DNA of 64,000 nt from assembly GCA_014584315.1 (NCBI GenBank), contig JACTNA010000028.1:1-64000 (forward strand), given 5' to 3'. Below, one piece after another: positions 23,925 to 58,047 of the stretch. A program made the translations under genes and the position numbers. The stretch's first letter is position 1. Every line of letters begins with the position of its first letter. This stretch comes from Planctomycetota bacterium. GTDB taxonomy: Bacteria > Planctomycetota > Phycisphaerae > Phycisphaerales > UBA1924. A model generated the notes under the pieces. That model had not been told where the DNA came from, did not search any database, and saw only the letters and a list, made by a program, of their open reading frames with translations.

Positions 23925-24491
23925 CTACTGCTCGATGACGAACTCGTCGAAGAGCGTCGATTCGCGTCCCTGCGGGTCGGCGGCGCGGAAGACCGCCTTC
24001 AGCAGCAGCCGACGCCGCTCGCCCCGGGGGGTCTCGCCGCGGGCGACGGCCTCGCGCCGCGCGATCATGTCGCGCACCCAGCCCGGCACGCGCCCGAGCC
24101 GCAGGCGGTAGGTCCGGGTCGCGGGGTCGAAGAGCGCGGAGTTCACGTCGGGCTGGGCCATCTCGGGGACGGGCCACGTCGCCTCCTGGCGCAGCGCGCT
24201 GCCGTCGGTCGGGTACGAGAACAGCTGGATTTCCAGCTCGCCGACCGCCTTCACCGCGTCGCCCCAGCGGTCCTTCAACTCGACGTGGCACATGATGACC
24301 TCGCCGTGCTCCGGGTCGCGCGTCAGGTGCGTCAGCGGGTAGATCCGGACGGCTGTTGGCGCGAACGGGTTGCGCGTCGCCGCCATCTCGGAGGGGCCTG
24401 CGTCCGCGCCCGCCGGGGTGATCGCGCACCCGGGCGCGAACGCCAGCATCGCGGCCGACACCATGATCGAGACGGCGACCCTGCGGCTCAT
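23925..24491 (-). CDS. Lipoprotein of unknown function, end of phage-like module
   Basis: A 188-residue protein with a lipoprotein signal: basic start, hydrophobic stretch and LAFAPGC lipobox, so Cys22 or thereabouts would be lipidated. The mature part is beta-rich: TAVRIYPLTHLTRDPEHGEVIMCHVELKDRWGDAVKAVGELEIQLF. It resembles conserved planctomycete lipoproteins that describe physical quantities of a Big/IgG-like fold, but I do not recognise a named family. The start overlaps the preceding gene by ATGA. It is last in the minus-strand run from the portal gene. Confidence 0.6.
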   Translation of the reverse strand: MSRRVAVSIMVSAAMLAFAPGCAITPAGADAGPSEMAATRNPFAPTAVRIYPLTHLTRDPEHGEVIMCHVELKDRWGDAVKAVGELEIQLFSYPTDGSALRQEATWPVPEMAQPDVNSALFDPATRTYRLRLGRVPGWVRDMIARREAVARGETPRGERRRLLLKAVFRAADPQGRESTLFDEFVIEQ

Positions 24492-24805
24492 CGCGGGCCA
24501 GTGTACCGCGCCGGCGCCGGCCCCGTCGCCCTCCCCGACGCCCGACCGCCCGACGCCGACCGCAGCCGCTCGATCGCGCCGCTCAGGTCGCGCACCGCGC
24601 CCTCGACGCCGACCATGGCGCGCGTGTTCGCGTTCACGGTCGAGAGCAGCGCGTCGAGCGACGCCCGCTCGCGCGTCAGGGCCTCGTGGGCCTCGGCCAG
24701 TTGCCGCTCGCGCGCCGCCGCCGACCGACGCTCGGCGAGCCACATCCACCCGATCAGCCCCGCGACGCCGAACTGCGCCACCGCGCCCGCGACCTCCGCC
24801 TCCAT
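24488..24805 (-). CDS. Small membrane coiled-coil protein, holin-like position
   Basis: A 105-residue protein with a short N-terminal hydrophobic helix (VAGAVAQFGVAGLIGWMWLA), followed by a long charged coiled-coil (RSAAARERQLAEAHEALTRERASLDALLS). This architecture is common for phage holin- or spanin-position proteins and for host membrane anchors. Placement between tail-like genes and a lipoprotein supports a phage origin, although no endolysin is nearby. I take the internal ATG 24805; upstream residues come from the heptad repeat. Confidence 0.5.
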   Translation of the reverse strand: MEAEVAGAVAQFGVAGLIGWMWLAERRSAAARERQLAEAHEALTRERASLDALLSTVNANTRAMVGVEGAVRDLSGAIERLRSASGGRASGRATGPAPARYTGPR

Positions 24806-24825
24806 CCGCGCACCTCCACCGCGCA

Positions 24826-24857
24826 CCCCAAGCCCCAAGCCTCAAGCCCCAAGCCTC
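24826..24857 (+). repeat. Heptanucleotide repeat CCCCAAG/CCTCAAG
   Basis: Four exact units of the heptamer (CCCCAAG twice, CCTCAAG, CCCCAAG) plus a degenerate fifth occupy the gap before the tail-like gene. Units of the same family recur inside hisS at 56721. Confidence 0.75.
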
Positions 24858-24862
24858 GCACG

Positions 24863-25243
24863 TCACGCCGCCCTGATCTTCCTGAACACCGCGACGTACG
24901 CCACCGACCGAACGCGCCCGCGGTCCGTGCGGTCGCCCTCGCGCCAGTCGATGAACGTCATGTCGGCCCAGGTGCGCCCGTGCGGGTCGATCAGCGTGCC
25001 GGGCGTCGGCGTCTCCTGGAGTTGGGCGACGATCGCATCGCGGAGCGTCCACAGCGCGCTCTCGCTCGACGCGACCAGCCGACCCGCCACGACCACGTCC
25101 AACTCGCGCAGGCCGATCGGGATCGTCCCCGGCGAGATGTCGCCGAAGTACAGCCGCGTGAGCATCATCTGCCCCTGCCGCCCGAGCGCGAACCGGTGCG
25201 GCCCGCTCCCGAACAGATCAACGCCCTTGAACGAACTGGCCAT
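24863..25243 (-). CDS. Putative phage tail/baseplate-like protein
   Basis: The 126-residue protein has no certain family. It is mainly beta, with GPHRFALGRQGQMMLTRLYFGD and LIDPHGRTWADMTFIDWREGDRTDRGRVRSVAYVAVFRK. The end resembles short tail-terminator or baseplate proteins that describe a coordinate (DPHGRTW) followed by a strand pair. GAGGAGG lies just upstream of ATG 25243. The context (downstream of capsid and neck-like genes) is the only other support. Confidence 0.4.
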   Translation of the reverse strand: MASSFKGVDLFGSGPHRFALGRQGQMMLTRLYFGDISPGTIPIGLRELDVVVAGRLVASSESALWTLRDAIVAQLQETPTPGTLIDPHGRTWADMTFIDWREGDRTDRGRVRSVAYVAVFRKIRAA

Positions 25244-25263
25244 GCGTCCTCCTCAGCGTGAGG

Positions 25264-25396
25264 GAAGTGGCGAAGTGGCAGAGTGCGAAGTGACGAAGTG
25301 ACGGAGTGACAGAGTGACGGAGTGGACGCTCACGGCTCTCGCCTCTTTCTTCGATGCCTTCGCTCTCTTCGCGCCCTTCGCGTTCATTTCGTGCCT
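25264..25396. repeat. Left mosaic repeat: GAAGTGAC array then TTCGCG-type array
   Basis: First come about eight units of an octamer close to GAAGTGAC (25264-25324), then a TTCGCGCCCTTCGCGTTC-like array (25330-25396). The same two families occur in reverse complement and reverse order at 25848-25960, on the other side of the gene at 25416. The array is not a CRISPR: units are shorter and directly adjacent. Confidence 0.7.
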
Positions 25397-25415
25397 CGTT
25401 CTGAGTCCGTCCGTC

Positions 25416-25823
25416 TCAGTCGGCCGCCTCGACGATCACCGGGTCCGCCGCGCCGTCCGGGGAGACGGCGACCAGCGTCACCGTCCGCGTCGCGCCGCCC
25501 TTGACCGAGAGTTCGTGCCGGACGCCCAGCACGACCGCCTGCGCGCTCACCCGCCGCCGTCCTGTGTCCGTTCCCGCGGGCGACGTGTCGAACGAGAGTT
25601 GGCCGGCGTCGCCGGGCCTGGGGGCGTCCGGCGCATCGCGCGTCAGCGACTGCACGACGCGCACGGTGACCTCCTGCTCCGGCACGTCCGCCAGCACGGC
25701 GTGCGGCCCCAGGTCCGACCACTCGACGACGCGCCGCCGCGCCGCGCGGTCCACCACCACCGCCGACACGTCCTCCCAGGTCGCCTCGCCGAACCGAACC
25801 GCCCGCGGCGTCAACAGCAGCAT
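25416..25823 (-). CDS. Putative phage tail-tube-like protein between mirrored repeats
   Basis: A 135-residue beta-rich protein: MLLLTPRAVRFGEATWEDVSAVVVDR, then ARRRVVEWSDLGPHAVLADVPEQEVTVRVVQSL and a second half with RRRVSAQAVVLGVRHELSVKGG. A tail-tube or neck subunit is possible on length and topology but not proven. The ATG 25823 is chosen because AGGAG stands six bases before it; the track start 25838 lacks a site. It is flanked by inverted mosaic repeats, which is unusual for a gene inside a structural operon. Confidence 0.45.
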   Translation of the reverse strand: MLLLTPRAVRFGEATWEDVSAVVVDRAARRRVVEWSDLGPHAVLADVPEQEVTVRVVQSLTRDAPDAPRPGDAGQLSFDTSPAGTDTGRRRVSAQAVVLGVRHELSVKGGATRTVTLVAVSPDGAADPVIVEAAD

Positions 25824-25847
25824 GTTGATCTCCTGCACTCGGGACTT

Positions 25848-25960
25848 GAACGCGAAGACCGCGAAGTGCGCGAAGGGGAAGGAGGAGGAACTTCATGGAA
25901 CGGCTTCGCCACTTTGCCACTCCGCCACTCTGCCACTTCGTCACTACGTCACTGCGTCAC
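25848..25960. repeat. Right mosaic repeat, inverse of the left one
   Basis: A CGCGAAG-type array (25848-25880) is followed by an array of GTCACTTC/GCCACTTT-like octamers to 25960. The last unit supplies the TGA stop of the gene ending at 25957. Confidence 0.7.
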
Positions 25961-26592
25961 CTTCTCTCAAGCAACAGCACGTTCAGCCTCCGCACGGCGT
26001 CCGGCTCGCCGTCGCCGTCGGTGTCGATGCGGGCCGCGACGCGCTGGCGTTCGGCGGCGAAGCGTTCGCGGTACATCTCGGCCCGTTCGCGCAGGGGCGA
26101 GCCGACGGGCGCGAGCGCGGACGCCGCCGCGTACACCAGGTGCAGCGCGCCCAGTGAGACGAGCAGCCGCAAGGCCCACGGGCTTTTCACGCTTGCCTCG
26201 CCCGGCTCGTCCGCGCTCTCCGGGTCGATCCCGAGCATCCGCAGGGTCTGCGCGTGCACGAGCGCGATCTGGGGGCGGAAGGTCGTGACCTCGACCGGCA
26301 CGCCCGAGGCGGGGCTGGCCGGCAGCAGGGGGTCGCTCTCCGCGGCGCGCAGCCGGGAGATGACCAGCGACGCCGACGTGGTGCGTTCGATCACCTCGTA
26401 GGCCGTGCCGTCCACGAGCACGACGTTGCCGGCCCCGACGCCCGCGGCGTCGAAGGCGACGTCCTGCTCGGTCATGGCGAGCGTGGTGCCCGCCGCGCCG
26501 CCCGTGCCGCGCACGAGCCGTTGTCCCGCCCACCCGACGTCGCGGAGCAGGTTCGGTTCGAGCGTGAGCAGGTCTCGATCCCTGGCGAACAT
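25957..26592 (-). CDS. Putative head-tail adaptor (neck) protein
   Basis: The 211-residue protein follows the capsid gene. Its first 120 residues are beta-rich with VVLVDGTAYEVIERTTSASLVISRLR; a helical part follows (SPWALRLLVSLGALHLVYAAASAL), then a region RERAEMYRERFAAERQRVAARIDTDGDGEPDAV. The order matches head-completion proteins encoded right after capsid, but the family is not recognised. Its stop codon is provided by the repeat array. The track merges it with an upstream spurious frame. Confidence 0.45.
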   Translation of the reverse strand: MFARDRDLLTLEPNLLRDVGWAGQRLVRGTGGAAGTTLAMTEQDVAFDAAGVGAGNVVLVDGTAYEVIERTTSASLVISRLRAAESDPLLPASPASGVPVEVTTFRPQIALVHAQTLRMLGIDPESADEPGEASVKSPWALRLLVSLGALHLVYAAASALAPVGSPLRERAEMYRERFAAERQRVAARIDTDGDGEPDAVRRLNVLLLERR

Positions 26593-26693
26593 GGCCCCCC
26601 CCTTTCGCGTCGTGGCGCGATCGTCGTCCTTCAAACCCGCGGCACGCCTCTCGACGGGCCGCGGGCACGCACGCGGAGTCCCCCTCCCCGCGA

Positions 26694-27872
26694 TCAGTCG
26701 CCCGTGACGCTGAGGCCGGCGATCAGGCCGTGGGCGTTCTCGTTCTTGAACTCGAGGGTGTACTCGCCGACGAGTTGGCCGCGGACCGAGTCTCCGGTGG
26801 CGGCGAGCGGCTTGTAGTGGAACGAGCGTCCGCTGAGCGGCATGACCTGGACGCGGCTGCTGTCGAGCAGGATGACGGTGTCGGCGGGCGCCCAGCGGCT
26901 GAGGACGACGCGGCAGACGCCGAAGTCGCTCTCGTAGACGTTGACGAGGTTGCGGAACGAATCGTCGTCCGGCCCGAAAGACCGCTGCGAGCCGAGGAAC
27001 TCGTTGAGCATCCGCTTCTGCGCGCCGTTCATCACGATGGTGTCGATCGGGCCGTTGGACTGTTCCCAGACGCGCTGGAGCGCGGCGTTGAGGAGTTCCT
27101 CGGTGAGGACCGCGCCGCTCGTGCCCCCGCCGTCGGGCAGCCCGCCCTGGCCCGGCGCGAAGCGGTTGGTGGCGATGGAGGGCACGATGCCGTTCATGGT
27201 GCGCCGCACGGTGGACGAGCCTTGCTGGTCGCTGGCGGGGGCGACGCCGTTGATGACGGTGTTCTCGAGGTCTCGGATGAGTTCGCGCAGGCGTTCCTGC
27301 TTCTGGTAGTCCGCCTCGTCCTCGACGCCGTGCGCCCGCGCCGCCTGCATGGACCCGCTCACCCACACGCTCGCGGTGAAGATCTGGGTGTAGTTCTGCT
27401 TTCGGGCGCGGTTGGTGAACCGGGCGGTGGGGGCCTCCGCCCCCTCGAGCGCGGCGTTGCCGATGATGATGAGGCGCAGGTTGTCTTCGAGCGTCGCGTT
27501 GGGCGTCCCGCCGTAGCCGCGCACCACCGTCAGCATGCTCCCGACGACGTTCGTCACCAGCATCACCTCGCTCCATCCGTCGGGGCGCACGAGGTCGCCG
27601 ATGCGGAAGCGCGACCCGTTGTCGACCGTGAGCGACGTCGCCGTCTCGGGATCGGGCACGAAGACGGTCTGGTTGAGGTGGTCGAAGTTGGGCAGCAGAG
27701 CGTCCTCGATCCACTCGTGGACGGTGCCCATCGCCTCGCGTCGCGGATCGCCCAGGTAGTCCAGCAGCGGCGTCTCGAACGGGCTGACGATGCCGATCAC
27801 GTCGGACACGTCCTCCGCCAGTTCAGGAAGCCCGGCCCCCGCCGAATACGTCGCTTTCCCCGTGAAACTCAT
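26694..27872 (-). CDS. Phage major capsid protein (DUF5309/SU10-like, HK97 fold)
   Basis: A 392-residue capsid protein. The N-arm TYSAGAGLPELAEDVSDVIGIVSPFETPLLDYLG is typical of DUF5309; later QIFTASVWVSGSMQAARAHG, TVINGVAPASDQQG and TIVMNGAQKRMLNEFLG follow the SU10-type order. GGAGGAG stands just before the ATG 27872. Family and synteny (portal, coiled-coil protein, capsid) are consistent, so a virion-like shell can be inferred. The sequence is intact, without frameshift, and of host-like GC. Confidence 0.8.
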   Translation of the reverse strand: MSFTGKATYSAGAGLPELAEDVSDVIGIVSPFETPLLDYLGDPRREAMGTVHEWIEDALLPNFDHLNQTVFVPDPETATSLTVDNGSRFRIGDLVRPDGWSEVMLVTNVVGSMLTVVRGYGGTPNATLEDNLRLIIIGNAALEGAEAPTARFTNRARKQNYTQIFTASVWVSGSMQAARAHGVEDEADYQKQERLRELIRDLENTVINGVAPASDQQGSSTVRRTMNGIVPSIATNRFAPGQGGLPDGGGTSGAVLTEELLNAALQRVWEQSNGPIDTIVMNGAQKRMLNEFLGSQRSFGPDDDSFRNLVNVYESDFGVCRVVLSRWAPADTVILLDSSRVQVMPLSGRSFHYKPLAATGDSVRGQLVGEYTLEFKNENAHGLIAGLSVTGD

Positions 27873-27989
27873 CGCTCCTCCTCCTTCAAGTCCTCCGGAC
27901 ACGGTTCACCCCCGCTCGCACCGCGCCGGACGGTCGCGGACACGCTCCGCGCCGCGGCCGGCGAGCCTCGTTCGTTCGTCGTTCAGCCG

Positions 27990-28493
27990 TCACCGCGCCG
28001 TGCGCCGCCGGCGCAGGTAGCGCAGCAGCAGTCGCCGGTCGCCGCTGGACCGCGCCGCCGCGGCCAGGTCTTCGATCGACTCCGCCCCGCGGCCTGTCAC
28101 GCTCGCGGCGGAGGCACGCACGCCCTCGCGCCGCGCGAAGAGCGCGGGCCTGGCGCGGCGCACCTCCGCCACCGCCGCCGCCACGCCGTCGGGCGCGACC
28201 TCGCCCATCGCGCTCCGCGCCGCCTCGGCGTCCACCGCGCCGGCCCGCAGCAACTCGCGGTCGATCTCGCGCTCGAGCCGGACGCGCTCGAGTTCGGCCA
28301 TCGCGTCGGCCGCGCGCCGCTCGGCCTCCGCCAGCCGCGCCGCCAGGGCGTCGAGCGACTCGCTCGCTCCGTCCACGCCCTCGGGGCGGGGGCTTTCGGT
28401 CTCGAGGCCGGGCCTTTCGGGCGCGGTCTCGCGCGCTTCCACGCTCACCATCGGCGCATCCTCCATCGTCACGGCACCTTCGTTCGCGTCCAT
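27990..28493 (-). CDS. Scaffold-like coiled-coil protein between portal and capsid
   Basis: The 167-residue protein has an acidic N-terminal 40 residues and a long charged helix (SLDALAARLAEAERRAADAMAELERVRLEREIDRELL), ending in a basic tail RRLLLRYLRRRRTAR. Acidic plus coiled-coil plus basic C-terminus is the pattern of capsid scaffolds, where the tail binds coat protein. Position between portal and capsid fits. No protease domain is visible, so the maturation step is unclear. Confidence 0.6.
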   Translation of the reverse strand: MDANEGAVTMEDAPMVSVEARETAPERPGLETESPRPEGVDGASESLDALAARLAEAERRAADAMAELERVRLEREIDRELLRAGAVDAEAARSAMGEVAPDGVAAAVAEVRRARPALFARREGVRASAASVTGRGAESIEDLAAAARSSGDRRLLLRYLRRRRTAR

Positions 28494-28513
28494 CGTGTCC
28501 TCCTTCCCTTGGC

Positions 28514-29989
28514 TCACACCACGCCCGCGTCGCTCGGCTGGTAGCCCAGTTCGTCGAGCACGCGCTCGGTCGGCACGCCGAGTTCGACCTTGCGTTTGGC
28601 GGCGAGGGTGTCGTCGAGCACGTCGCTGGGCAGCGGGTCGGGCCATTCGAGCCGGACGCCCCGGTCGCGCTCGTCGAGTTCGAGGGCGCCCGCCGCGTCC
28701 AGCGCGCCCAGCACGATGGCGCACGCCTCCGCGATGCCGCGTCCGTAGGTGACGCGCTTGCGCTCGGTCTTGCCCAGCAGCCCGACGAGGGTGATCTTCA
28801 GGGCGTTCGCGCTGGAGAGGTTGCCGACGCGTCCCTGCACGACGCCGGTCGCCAGGGGCGGCACGCCCGAGGTCTTGTCGAGGGCGTCGCGTACTTCCTT
28901 GACGTGCGCGTCCTCGCTCGGGCTGCTCGCGTCGCCGCCGAACGCCTGCACCGACGCCTCCGGGTTGTCGGTGCTCCACACCCGCCCCGGCCCGACGGGC
29001 ATCCGCTCGAAGCCCTCGATGCCCTTGGCGAGGTACATCTTGAAACTCTGGAGCGTGACGCGGCTGGCCCGGTCGCTCAGGCGCGTGTTCAGTTCGTCCT
29101 GGAGCGGGATCAGCGGCTCGACCTCGCTCAGCCCCGAGTAGCGGAAGGGCTGCGAGACGTTCTGCACGTGGACCACGGGCACGCGCCCGCCGGTGAGCGT
29201 GATCGCCGATTCCTCGACGATCTCGCCGTCCTCGTAGACGCGGCGCACCGAGCCGGTGATGACCTCGGTGACGACCGATCGGCGGCGCCGCGTCGGCGTG
29301 GCGCGACCTCGCCCGAAGGCGCCGACGCCCCGCGTGCGTTCGACCTCGTTGAGTTCCCGCTCGAAGTGGATCGCGTAGGCGTCGAGGCGCCGGTAGTCGT
29401 TCGGGTTCAGCGCCGGCACGCCGCGCGTCGGCTCGACGAGTTCGATCCGCACGTGCTCGGCGATCTCGCCCGCGTCGGGCGGGGCGCCGCGCCGCCCGAG
29501 CAGGCGCAGGCCGGCCTCGTCGAGGCGGAGGACGAGGTCGGCGTGCCCGTAGACGTGCCCGAGCAGGGCGAAGTCCTGGAGCAGCGCGACGCCGCCGGAC
29601 GCCTCCCACACGGCGTCGAGGGTGCGTTCGACGCGCTCGCGGGTCGCGCCGTCGCGGGCGGTGCTGAGGATGCGCACGGGCTTGCCGAACATGAAGTCCA
29701 CCATCGTGTGGATGCGCCACGCGATGTCGTTCTCGATCACGACCTCGCGGTCGCCGGCGCGGTCGTCGTCGCCCGGCGTGCGTCCGACGAGGCGCGGGGG
29801 CAGGCCGGCCCGTTGTGCGAGCCGTCGCCCCGCCCCCGCGCCCGTCGCTCCCCCCGCCGATTCCATCGGGTTGCGGTAGTAGCGCCAGAGCGTTTCGAGT
29901 CGCGGCCTGACGAGCGACTCGTGCTCGTCGATCAGCGCGGCGATCGCGCCCCCCTCGATCCCCGCCGTGTCGTCGATGCGAACGCTCAT
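28514..29989 (-). CDS. Phage portal protein (SPP1 gp6-like)
   Basis: The 491-residue protein begins MSVRIDD with AGGAGG upstream. It shows portal landmarks: LVRPRLETLWRYYRNP near the N-terminus, VIENDIAWRIHTMVDFMFGKPVRI, PVVHVQNVSQPFRYSGLSEVEPLIPLQDELN and the C-terminal LDKTSGVPPLATG. This matches the SPP1 Gp6 portal family, whose dodecamer forms the DNA gate of the capsid. No terminase large or small subunit precedes it; the next gene upstream is asd. It is the first gene of the module. Confidence 0.85.
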   Translation of the reverse strand: MSVRIDDTAGIEGGAIAALIDEHESLVRPRLETLWRYYRNPMESAGGATGAGAGRRLAQRAGLPPRLVGRTPGDDDRAGDREVVIENDIAWRIHTMVDFMFGKPVRILSTARDGATRERVERTLDAVWEASGGVALLQDFALLGHVYGHADLVLRLDEAGLRLLGRRGAPPDAGEIAEHVRIELVEPTRGVPALNPNDYRRLDAYAIHFERELNEVERTRGVGAFGRGRATPTRRRRSVVTEVITGSVRRVYEDGEIVEESAITLTGGRVPVVHVQNVSQPFRYSGLSEVEPLIPLQDELNTRLSDRASRVTLQSFKMYLAKGIEGFERMPVGPGRVWSTDNPEASVQAFGGDASSPSEDAHVKEVRDALDKTSGVPPLATGVVQGRVGNLSSANALKITLVGLLGKTERKRVTYGRGIAEACAIVLGALDAAGALELDERDRGVRLEWPDPLPSDVLDDTLAAKRKVELGVPTERVLDELGYQPSDAGVV

Positions 29990-56521: not shown

Positions 56522-58047
56522 GCCCGCTCCGCGATCTTCCGCCCGATTTCGTCGATCGGCACGCGATCCGGCCACTGCTCGCCCGTGCGCAGGTCCTTCA
56601 CCGTCGCCTCCGACGCGCTCTCGACGATGACGGCGAACCGCGCCCCGACCTGCGCCGCCTCCTTCAACAGCTTGCCGACGTTCTTCGTCGCCTTGTACGA
56701 GTGGCGGACGTGGAGGGGGGCCTGAGGCTTGGGGCCTGGGGCCTGAGTCTTGAGTCCTGAGTCCTGAGGCGCGCGGGAGCCGCGCCGCAGCGAGGCGACC
56801 AGCGGCCGCACCTGCCGCTCCGCTTCCTCCGTGCCGTTGCTCAGCACGAACACGTCCGGCGACTGCCCGACCAGCCCCATCAACTCCGCATCGCTCGGCA
56901 TCAGCCCCTTGTCCTGCAACAGGTTCGCCAGCACCACGTCCCCCATCGCGAACCCGACCGCGGGAGTGGGAGGGCCGCCGAACAACTCGACCAGATTGTC
57001 GTACCGCCCGCCGCCGGCGACCGCACGCTCGCCCTCGGCGATGACTTCGAAGACGGTGCCGGTGTAGTACGCGAGGCCGCGCACCACTCGCATGTCGGCC
57101 GTGAACCAATCGGTTGAATAGCCCAACTGAAGAAGTGCCAGATTTACGGGCATGGTCTTGGAGAATGCGCGAGCCGAAGCCTCGTGAACTGCATCAAGAG
57201 GCCCTAGTTGAGCATGGGCAGTCTGGAACACTTCCGTAAGTGACGAGGCAGTGCCACTTATCGTTGCGCCGGGCACGAGAGATAGAATACACGCCTTGCT
57301 TGCGCCAAGCGCACGGAGCTCGTCAAAGCTCTTGTCTGGCGGTTGCTTATCGATCCGGTCTATGACGGCGAATGCAGCTGAAAGAGCCGCGCTAGACACT
57401 CCCTCTTTCAGAAGCAGATCGCTGACGACCTTTCTGTCGCTGATGCGGATTCGAACATCCCCGGGTGTGAGTCCGACGCTGGAAAGGAAGTCGACACAGC
57501 ACGCGATGCACTCCGCATCCATCCGCGCCTTCGCCTCCGCGACCTCCGCGCGGCTTTCCGCGTCCTCCGCGTTCCATTTTTCAGGAGCCACATCCAGCCC
57601 CAGCACGTCGCAGTTCCACTGCAGGAACTCCCGCAGCCTGCCCCGTTGCGGCCTCTCCGCCCTGAAAAACGGCCCGATCTGGAACCACTTGCACGGTTTG
57701 GGCAGCCCCGCCGCCCGGGCCGCGTACATCCGCGCCAGCGTCGGCGTGAACTCCGGCCGCATCGCGTAGGGCGCGCGCCCGGTCGCCCGCACCCGCTCGA
57801 CCTCGTCCGGGCTTTTGCCCGAGTACGCCTGGAACAACTCGCCGAGGATGCCCTCGCCGCTCTTGACGGCGTAGAGGTCCGACTCCTCGAACGTCGGCCC
57901 GTCCACCTCCTCGAAGCCGTGTCGCACGGCCACCTCGCGCCACCGCTCGGTGATCCACCGCCGCCGCGCCGCCTCGACCGGGTAGAGGTCCCGCGTCCCG
58001 CGCGGCCCCTGCATCGGCGTGCCCTGCTTCGTCCCGGGTTCCGACAT
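56506..58047 (-). CDS. hisS: Histidyl-tRNA synthetase with repeat-encoded insertions
   Basis: A class II synthetase of 513 residues: motif 1 region GPRGTRDLYP and PTFEESDLYA, motif 2 around GRAPYAMRPEFTPTLARM and FQIGPFFRAERPQ, the His-binding VRGLAYYTGTVFEV, motif 3 GGRYDNLVELFGG, and the anticodon-binding domain DVFVLSNGTEEAERQV. Two insertions are encoded by repeat DNA: NAEDAESRAEVAEAKARM (about 160) and QDSGLKTQAPGPKPQA (about 430). DNA at 57100-57500 is markedly less GC-rich than the rest of the gene. TAGCCT stands six bases before ATG. Confidence 0.92.
   Translation of the reverse strand: MSEPGTKQGTPMQGPRGTRDLYPVEAARRRWITERWREVAVRHGFEEVDGPTFEESDLYAVKSGEGILGELFQAYSGKSPDEVERVRATGRAPYAMRPEFTPTLARMYAARAAGLPKPCKWFQIGPFFRAERPQRGRLREFLQWNCDVLGLDVAPEKWNAEDAESRAEVAEAKARMDAECIACCVDFLSSVGLTPGDVRIRISDRKVVSDLLLKEGVSSAALSAAFAVIDRIDKQPPDKSFDELRALGASKACILSLVPGATISGTASSLTEVFQTAHAQLGPLDAVHEASARAFSKTMPVNLALLQLGYSTDWFTADMRVVRGLAYYTGTVFEVIAEGERAVAGGGRYDNLVELFGGPPTPAVGFAMGDVVLANLLQDKGLMPSDAELMGLVGQSPDVFVLSNGTEEAERQVRPLVASLRRGSRAPQDSGLKTQAPGPKPQAPLHVRHSYKATKNVGKLLKEAAQVGARFAVIVESASEATVKDLRTGEQWPDRVPIDEIGRKIAERAWNSR
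56721..56769. repeat. Heptanucleotide repeat inside hisS
   Basis: Seven adjacent heptamers (CCTGAGG, CTTGGGG, CCTGGGG, CCTGAGT, CTTGAGT, CCTGAGT, CCTGAGG on +) encode a flexible segment between the catalytic and anticodon domains. The family matches 24826. Confidence 0.8.

Follow-up and report, generated by a model that had tools for sequence, protein, structure and literature searches.

Mirror-image repeats around a resident gene of a Planctomycetota bacterium as probable gene-less members of an intergenic element family with inverted short-word arrays

The window, a stretch of 64,000 nucleotides from the genome of a Planctomycetota bacterium, contains between positions 25264 and 25960 a single gene that is flanked on both sides by tandem arrays of short words in mirror-image order. 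With a probability of about 0.7, we consider these arrays to belong to two separate elements, both gene-less and both from an intergenic family with inverted short-word arrays at the ends, whereas the gene between them is a long-term resident of a vertically inherited cluster. The two units would lie in opposite orientation, one in each spacer, and would thereby generate the order b-c-gene-c'-b'. Coding members of the family would contain either a PF05635 gene specifying a four-helix-bundle protein (S23p/IVP) between arrays of 7/8-base words or a GxxExxY gene (PF13366) between arrays of mostly 8-10-base words, and many gene-less members would resemble MITEs. The observations on which this account is built are the anatomy of the arrays, their orientation rule, their link to two gene families, and the presence or absence of arrays and the replacement of words at orthologous spacers; the b...c units themselves are probably inserted elements.

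Layout of the arrays in the window

The plus strand of the segment presents b, c, the gene on the minus strand, c' and b', and both the positions of the arrays and the inverted pairs I1 (40 nt at 80%), I2 (30 nt at 87%) and I3 (20 nt at 95%) confirmed the mirror order that a sequence-only reading of this DNA had claimed. The left b array (25264..25325, plus strand) is composed of the octamer AGTGACGR/AGTGGCRR and begins about 21 bases off the start codon of a 126-aa gene (24863..25243, minus strand) on the far side of the left spacer. It is followed by the left c array (25359..25386, plus strand), which consists of the nonamer CTTCGCGNN with TTCGCGTTCA as its end. The right copies are located on the minus strand, with c' at 25847..25876 (TTCGCG on that strand) and b' at 25905..25960 (AGTGAC on that strand). 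The left spacer (25244..25415) thus represents one b...c unit that reads against the direction of the enclosed gene and the right spacer (25824..25956) a second one that reads with it, and every gene around the mirror is encoded on the minus strand. The window units are located between protein genes and outside rRNA genes, and a search of the window against Rfam yielded no match.

It had further been claimed that the next gene takes its stop codon from the right array, and this statement proved correct, as this neighbouring gene (25957..26592, minus strand), which belongs to the phage-head-like cluster, terminates in a TGA at 25957-25959 within b'. Inspection of the word itself revealed one TGA per 8 bases in b and a complement of the b unit that is devoid of stop codons. 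Since the unit comprises 8 bases and includes TGA, three units stop all frames on the b strand, and an array of this kind may therefore adjoin or replace the stop codon of a gene, as is the case in the window.

With at most one mismatch, the b pattern yielded 13 matches in the window, compared with 3.6 expected matches and a maximum of 9 in 100 shuffles, and 12 of these 13 matches are located inside the b and b' arrays. The reversed patterns, applied as a control to the whole genome, gave 0 matches for b and 0 for c. The genome-wide counts of b and c that are reported below were derived from strict pattern searches and from the stretches around the resulting matches.

The enclosed gene as a resident of an old cluster

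The enclosed gene (25416..25823, minus strand) encodes a protein of 135 aa. The respective ORF is open to 25838 (about 140 aa), and ATG at 25823, with AGGAG six bases upstream, is most likely the start codon rather than GTG at 25838. The gene had been described as phage-like, a designation that suits neighbouring genes, which encode an SU10-type major capsid protein (26694-27902, minus strand) and an SPP1-type portal protein (28514-29989, minus strand), but not the gene itself, for which comparisons with Pfam, PHROGs and NCBIfam revealed no family. The region 24488-29989 has the composition of a small phage-head-like cluster (portal, capsid, and four or five small genes) between host genes. 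No terminase was detected near this cluster, and PF03237, the only terminase family searched, gave 0 matches in the whole genome; a search with the capsid protein against viral contigs likewise detected no relative.

Within the family, 33 of the 37 genomes contain a single homologue of the enclosed gene, compared with only one of 24 genomes from other families of the order. In most of the relatives with surroundings read, it has the same neighbours in the same direction, and the cluster is possibly domesticated or similar to a gene transfer agent. In the outgroups G004, G005 and G007 the gene order is kept, and both spacers are array-free and 9-20 bp in length or nearly so. The congener G002 contains clear arrays in both spacers in the same order, with a downstream spacer of about 370 bp, and the congener G001 contains arrays in both spacers in the same order in eroded form; the left unit is found at the same place in both. 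As this order is shared by three congeners, the arrangement is older than these three congeners, and as the gene is conserved in relatives that lack arrays, the arrays did not bring the gene.

These data bear on two of the interpretations that had been offered for the symmetry. The first was a mobile unit, in which b...b' and c...c' would represent nested terminal inverted repeats of one element carrying the gene. Homotypic arrays do flank a single gene in the coding elements described below, and b/b' and c/c' do so here. However, the gene has long belonged, in single copy, to a syntenic cluster, b...c units also occur singly elsewhere in the genome, and array-free orthologues in the same gene order largely refute the proposed cassette, which we regard as highly improbable. 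The second interpretation, an inversion substrate, would imply that recombination between the arms flips the segment 25400-25850. This segment is flanked by long inverted repeats, but the gene is collinear with its neighbours in the compared relatives, including the two array-bearing congeners, the arms are only 80-95% complementary, and no recombinase was detected among the neighbouring genes tested. An invertible switch is thus unsupported by the present data and appears extremely unlikely.

The mirror as two b...c units in opposite orientation

The genome contains seven spacers in which b and c are arranged alike relative to each other, namely the left and right spacers of the window and the loci L060, L061, L063, L064 and L068. 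The units other than the window pair stand alone, save for an incomplete case in L064. When the units were oriented from b to c, local alignment gave a value of 43 for the left versus the right window unit, versus 64 for the left unit and L063 and 56 for the left unit and L061. Both words share the sequence CGAAG/CTTCG.

The sequence-only reading had also considered transcript ends that form long hairpins. One part of this suggestion was upheld, since a fold enclosing the gene is predicted for the joint transcript of 717 nt (z = -5.47; 0 of 20 shuffles equally good), but the window spacers folded singly were no better than shuffles. The candidate of a special hairpin in each spacer was consequently dropped. 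A related explanation holds that the arms were selected to pair in a polycistronic mRNA, enclosing or insulating the gene; besides the predicted joint fold, the retention of the arrangement across three congeners is in its favour. The window pair is not preferentially complementary, however, as its RNA duplex (-140.5 kcal/mol) is exceeded by that of the inverted left unit and the L063 unit (-200.9 kcal/mol), arms from the same genome pair no better than arms across genomes, and the arms of G001 are eroded (RNAduplex -67.8). A selected pair of arms was dropped for this reason, and the long-range hairpin is an improbable explanation. The long-range fold results from two related units that lie in opposite orientations, with no sign of selection for the pair, and the mirror as such represents a by-product of an ordinary kind.

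The site of the L068 unit (G000, the window's genome, C26:157.2 kb; L327, L328) differs among the congeners, as G000 has c'...b', G001 has b...c in the opposite order, and G002 has a CACAGATGNA element. These differences may be due either to occupation of the spacer on more than one occasion or to the flipping of a unit.

Orientation of the arrays relative to gene boundaries

Of the 19 intergenic b arrays in the window's genome, 17 have their start at the gene boundary closer to them, and 16 follow the 3' end of a gene and point away from it. For c, it is the end of the array that lies at the closer boundary, in 12 of 17 cases in this genome and in 18 of 19 cases in G045, a genome of the same order; G013 was excluded because its gene calls, trained on 434 codons, were too few. 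These counts correspond to spacers in which the left end carries a GAAG-rich array and the right end a CTTC-rich one, on either strand. With respect to the assumed tendency of the arrays to pair around genes, their orientation is non-random relative to gene boundaries, yet five of the seven b...c units are without a complete mirrored partner.

The spacers of G045 (L151-L170) are very regular, with c'...c or b...b' at the two ends, and they represent the clearest set of gene-less elements.

Inverted arrays bordering PF05635 and GxxExxY genes

In L168 (G045:C49), a c'...c pair encloses a GxxExxY gene (PF13366) with one internal TAG. Arrays around genes were evaluated by scoring the left flank against the inverted right flank, with a cut-off score of at least 16. 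Among the relatives, this score was reached by 34 of 41 GxxExxY genes and by 55 of 71 PF05635 genes (36 of 47 strong and 19 of 24 weaker matches), compared with 0 of 60 mismatched flanks of the strong PF05635 set. About a quarter of the PF05635 genes and a sixth of the GxxExxY genes of the relatives are accordingly without detectable inverted flanks. The core PF13366 homologue reached the cut-off in 0 of 19 cases, a value that is unaffected by the inflation of its mismatched-pair control through orthologous loci in mixed orientation. This longer PF13366 homologue (L251-L270) occurs family-wide in single copy without inverted arrays and looks like a core gene. The array periods among the relatives are nearly all 7 or 8 for PF05635 and mostly 8-10 for GxxExxY genes, with 8-base arrays occurring in both gene classes.

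The link to PF05635 extended to a multi-phylum set including, by record title, Planctomycetota, Acidobacteriota, Bacteroidota, Proteobacteria, Firmicutes, Nitrospirae, candidate phyla and others. In this set, 53 of 76 loci scored above the 99th percentile of mismatched pairs, and the 99 arrays scored had a period of 7 in 66 cases and of 8 in 26 cases (92 of 99). A phylum-wide GxxExxY set, in which the ORF boundaries rest on hand-assigned strands, gave 15 of 25 loci at or above 16 but only 11 of 25 above the 99th percentile of mismatched pairs, partly because mismatched pairs score higher here, words such as CACAGAGGN being alike across genomes. No paper linking PF05635 or GxxExxY proteins to such arrays was found in the open-access literature.

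With regard to the window, PF05635 genes flanked by the exact word b were found in L340, where it stands on both sides, and in L219, where the match is exact on one side, and the b octamers fit the 7/8-base end arrays of the coding PF05635 members. As the spacers 25244-25415 and 25824-25956 contain neither a PF05635 ORF nor room for one, the window units are at most gene-less derivatives of the PF05635 class; the c and c' copies of the window are likewise not associated with a GxxExxY gene.

Differences in array length and words among congeners and the near confinement of arrays to spacers would also be expected if the arrays were microsatellites, generated locally by replication slippage in any DNA free of coding constraint and unrelated to any element. 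Slippage does not, however, yield inverted copies at both spacer ends, a fixed orientation towards the gene boundary or an association with PF05635 and GxxExxY genes, and we judge it an unlikely origin of the arrays.

Comparison of orthologous spacers among congeners

The PF05635 elements of the window's genome each carry their own word at both ends, which is GAGCAGCA in L231 (C13), CAAATGG in L232 (C26) and AGTGGAC in L233 (C20). In the L233 spacer, the coding element of G000 is replaced in G001 by a gene-less element with the word CCAAATGG, each lying in the interval that separates the stop codon from the ribosome-binding region of the following gene, and the spacer of G002 is array-free and about 34 bases in length. 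At L231, the site is empty in G001, and the PF05635 genes of G000 and G002 are only 53% identical (flanks 89%) and have different words; this comparison of IVP proteins covers three of six loci. At L232, the PF05635 gene is present in all three genomes, and the word of G001, which differs from that of G000/G002, is found at both ends. At L235, G000 contains a GxxExxY gene, G002 a gene-less CACAGAGG hairpin and G001 neither of them. The left and right words at L231 and L233 agree within a genome, but not between genomes.

The b...c units have unlike words at their two ends, in contrast to the coding elements, and none of them was found with a gene inside. The words of the coding elements read in the window's genome (AGTGGAC, CAAATGG, GAGCAGCA and CGCGGAGGC) include no local source of b or c. 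No target-site duplication was evident by eye at three compared sites, no transposase was identified, and neither transposition nor excision was seen; the pattern of presence and absence could include loss.

Relation to known systems

The closest known systems are the intervening sequences (IVSs) of 23S rRNA in Coxiella and Leptospira. The Coxiella IVS comprises an S23p/PF05635 ORF, a 28-bp terminal stem and tandem heptamers of variable copy number before the ORF, and it is excised by RNase III (PMC4990558); for one S23p protein, a pentameric ring has been reported (cited in PMC4990558). The elements described here share with IVSs the PF05635 ORF, complementary ends that could form a stem, heptamers beside the ORF and variants without an intact ORF. 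They differ in their location between protein genes instead of rRNA helices, in having arrays at both ends and in the many gene-less copies per genome. The arrays of the window are best read as gene-less members of IVS-like elements. By analogy with the Coxiella IVS, pairing and processing of the ends would make transcription of array-bounded elements tolerable, with the hairpins in their transcripts presumably cut by RNase III, and the encoded proteins would act on the array hairpins. We infer that the PF05635 or GxxExxY proteins may drive the spread or upkeep of the elements, and it might be speculated that the pentameric ring of S23p fits the repeated word.

MITEs and REP/REPIN sequences are short, gene-less and quasi-palindromic, are interspersed in spacers and are presumably mobilised in trans. 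The gene-less elements are likewise short, quasi-palindromic and scattered through spacers, but their ends are arrays with a word that varies between elements and matches within one, and neither a transposase nor a REP-associated tyrosine transposase was identified. The accessory protein Avd of diversity-generating retroelements (DGRs) resembles PF05635 by sequence and structure alignment (PMC10053308); unlike the situation in DGRs, no reverse transcriptase was noticed, as an incidental observation, beside the elements described here. In filamentous cyanobacteria, short tandemly repeated repetitive sequences (STRRs) consist of 7-bp units that lie between genes, are predicted to form hairpins and have no assigned function (PMC2670836). 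The arrays resemble them in unit length (about 7 bp), in their location between genes and in predicted hairpins, and differ by units of 7, 8 or 9 bases.

The occurrence of inverted short-word arrays around genes for two small proteins in many phyla suggests a widespread and little-described mobile or RNA-processed element, which may be more than a variant of known systems, with novelty judged on the open-access literature. On balance, we see an even chance that the arrays define a pan-bacterial class of intergenic mobile elements in which the word length follows the protein (7/8 for PF05635, mostly 8-10 for GxxExxY), both ends share a word and change it together, gene-less relatives fill spacers from the stop codon to the ribosome-binding site, and both STRRs and rRNA IVSs figure as members or relics. 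Tandem repeats of 7-9 bases between bacterial genes, such as STRRs, have been noted before without an accepted explanation, and no established role of PF05635 proteins beyond rRNA and DGRs or of GxxExxY proteins was found in the open-access literature. If the arrays are the ends and the proteins the contents of one kind of element, both become directly testable. That the two ends change their word in concert calls for a copying or pairing mechanism of an unfamiliar kind.

Besides b and c, the window contains two heptamer arrays. One of them (24826..24859, CCCCAAG/CCTCAAG) is located in the next spacer of the phage-head-like cluster and is without counterpart in G001 and G002; the other one, with the word GGGGCCTGAGGCTTGAGG, extends from 56717 to 56770.
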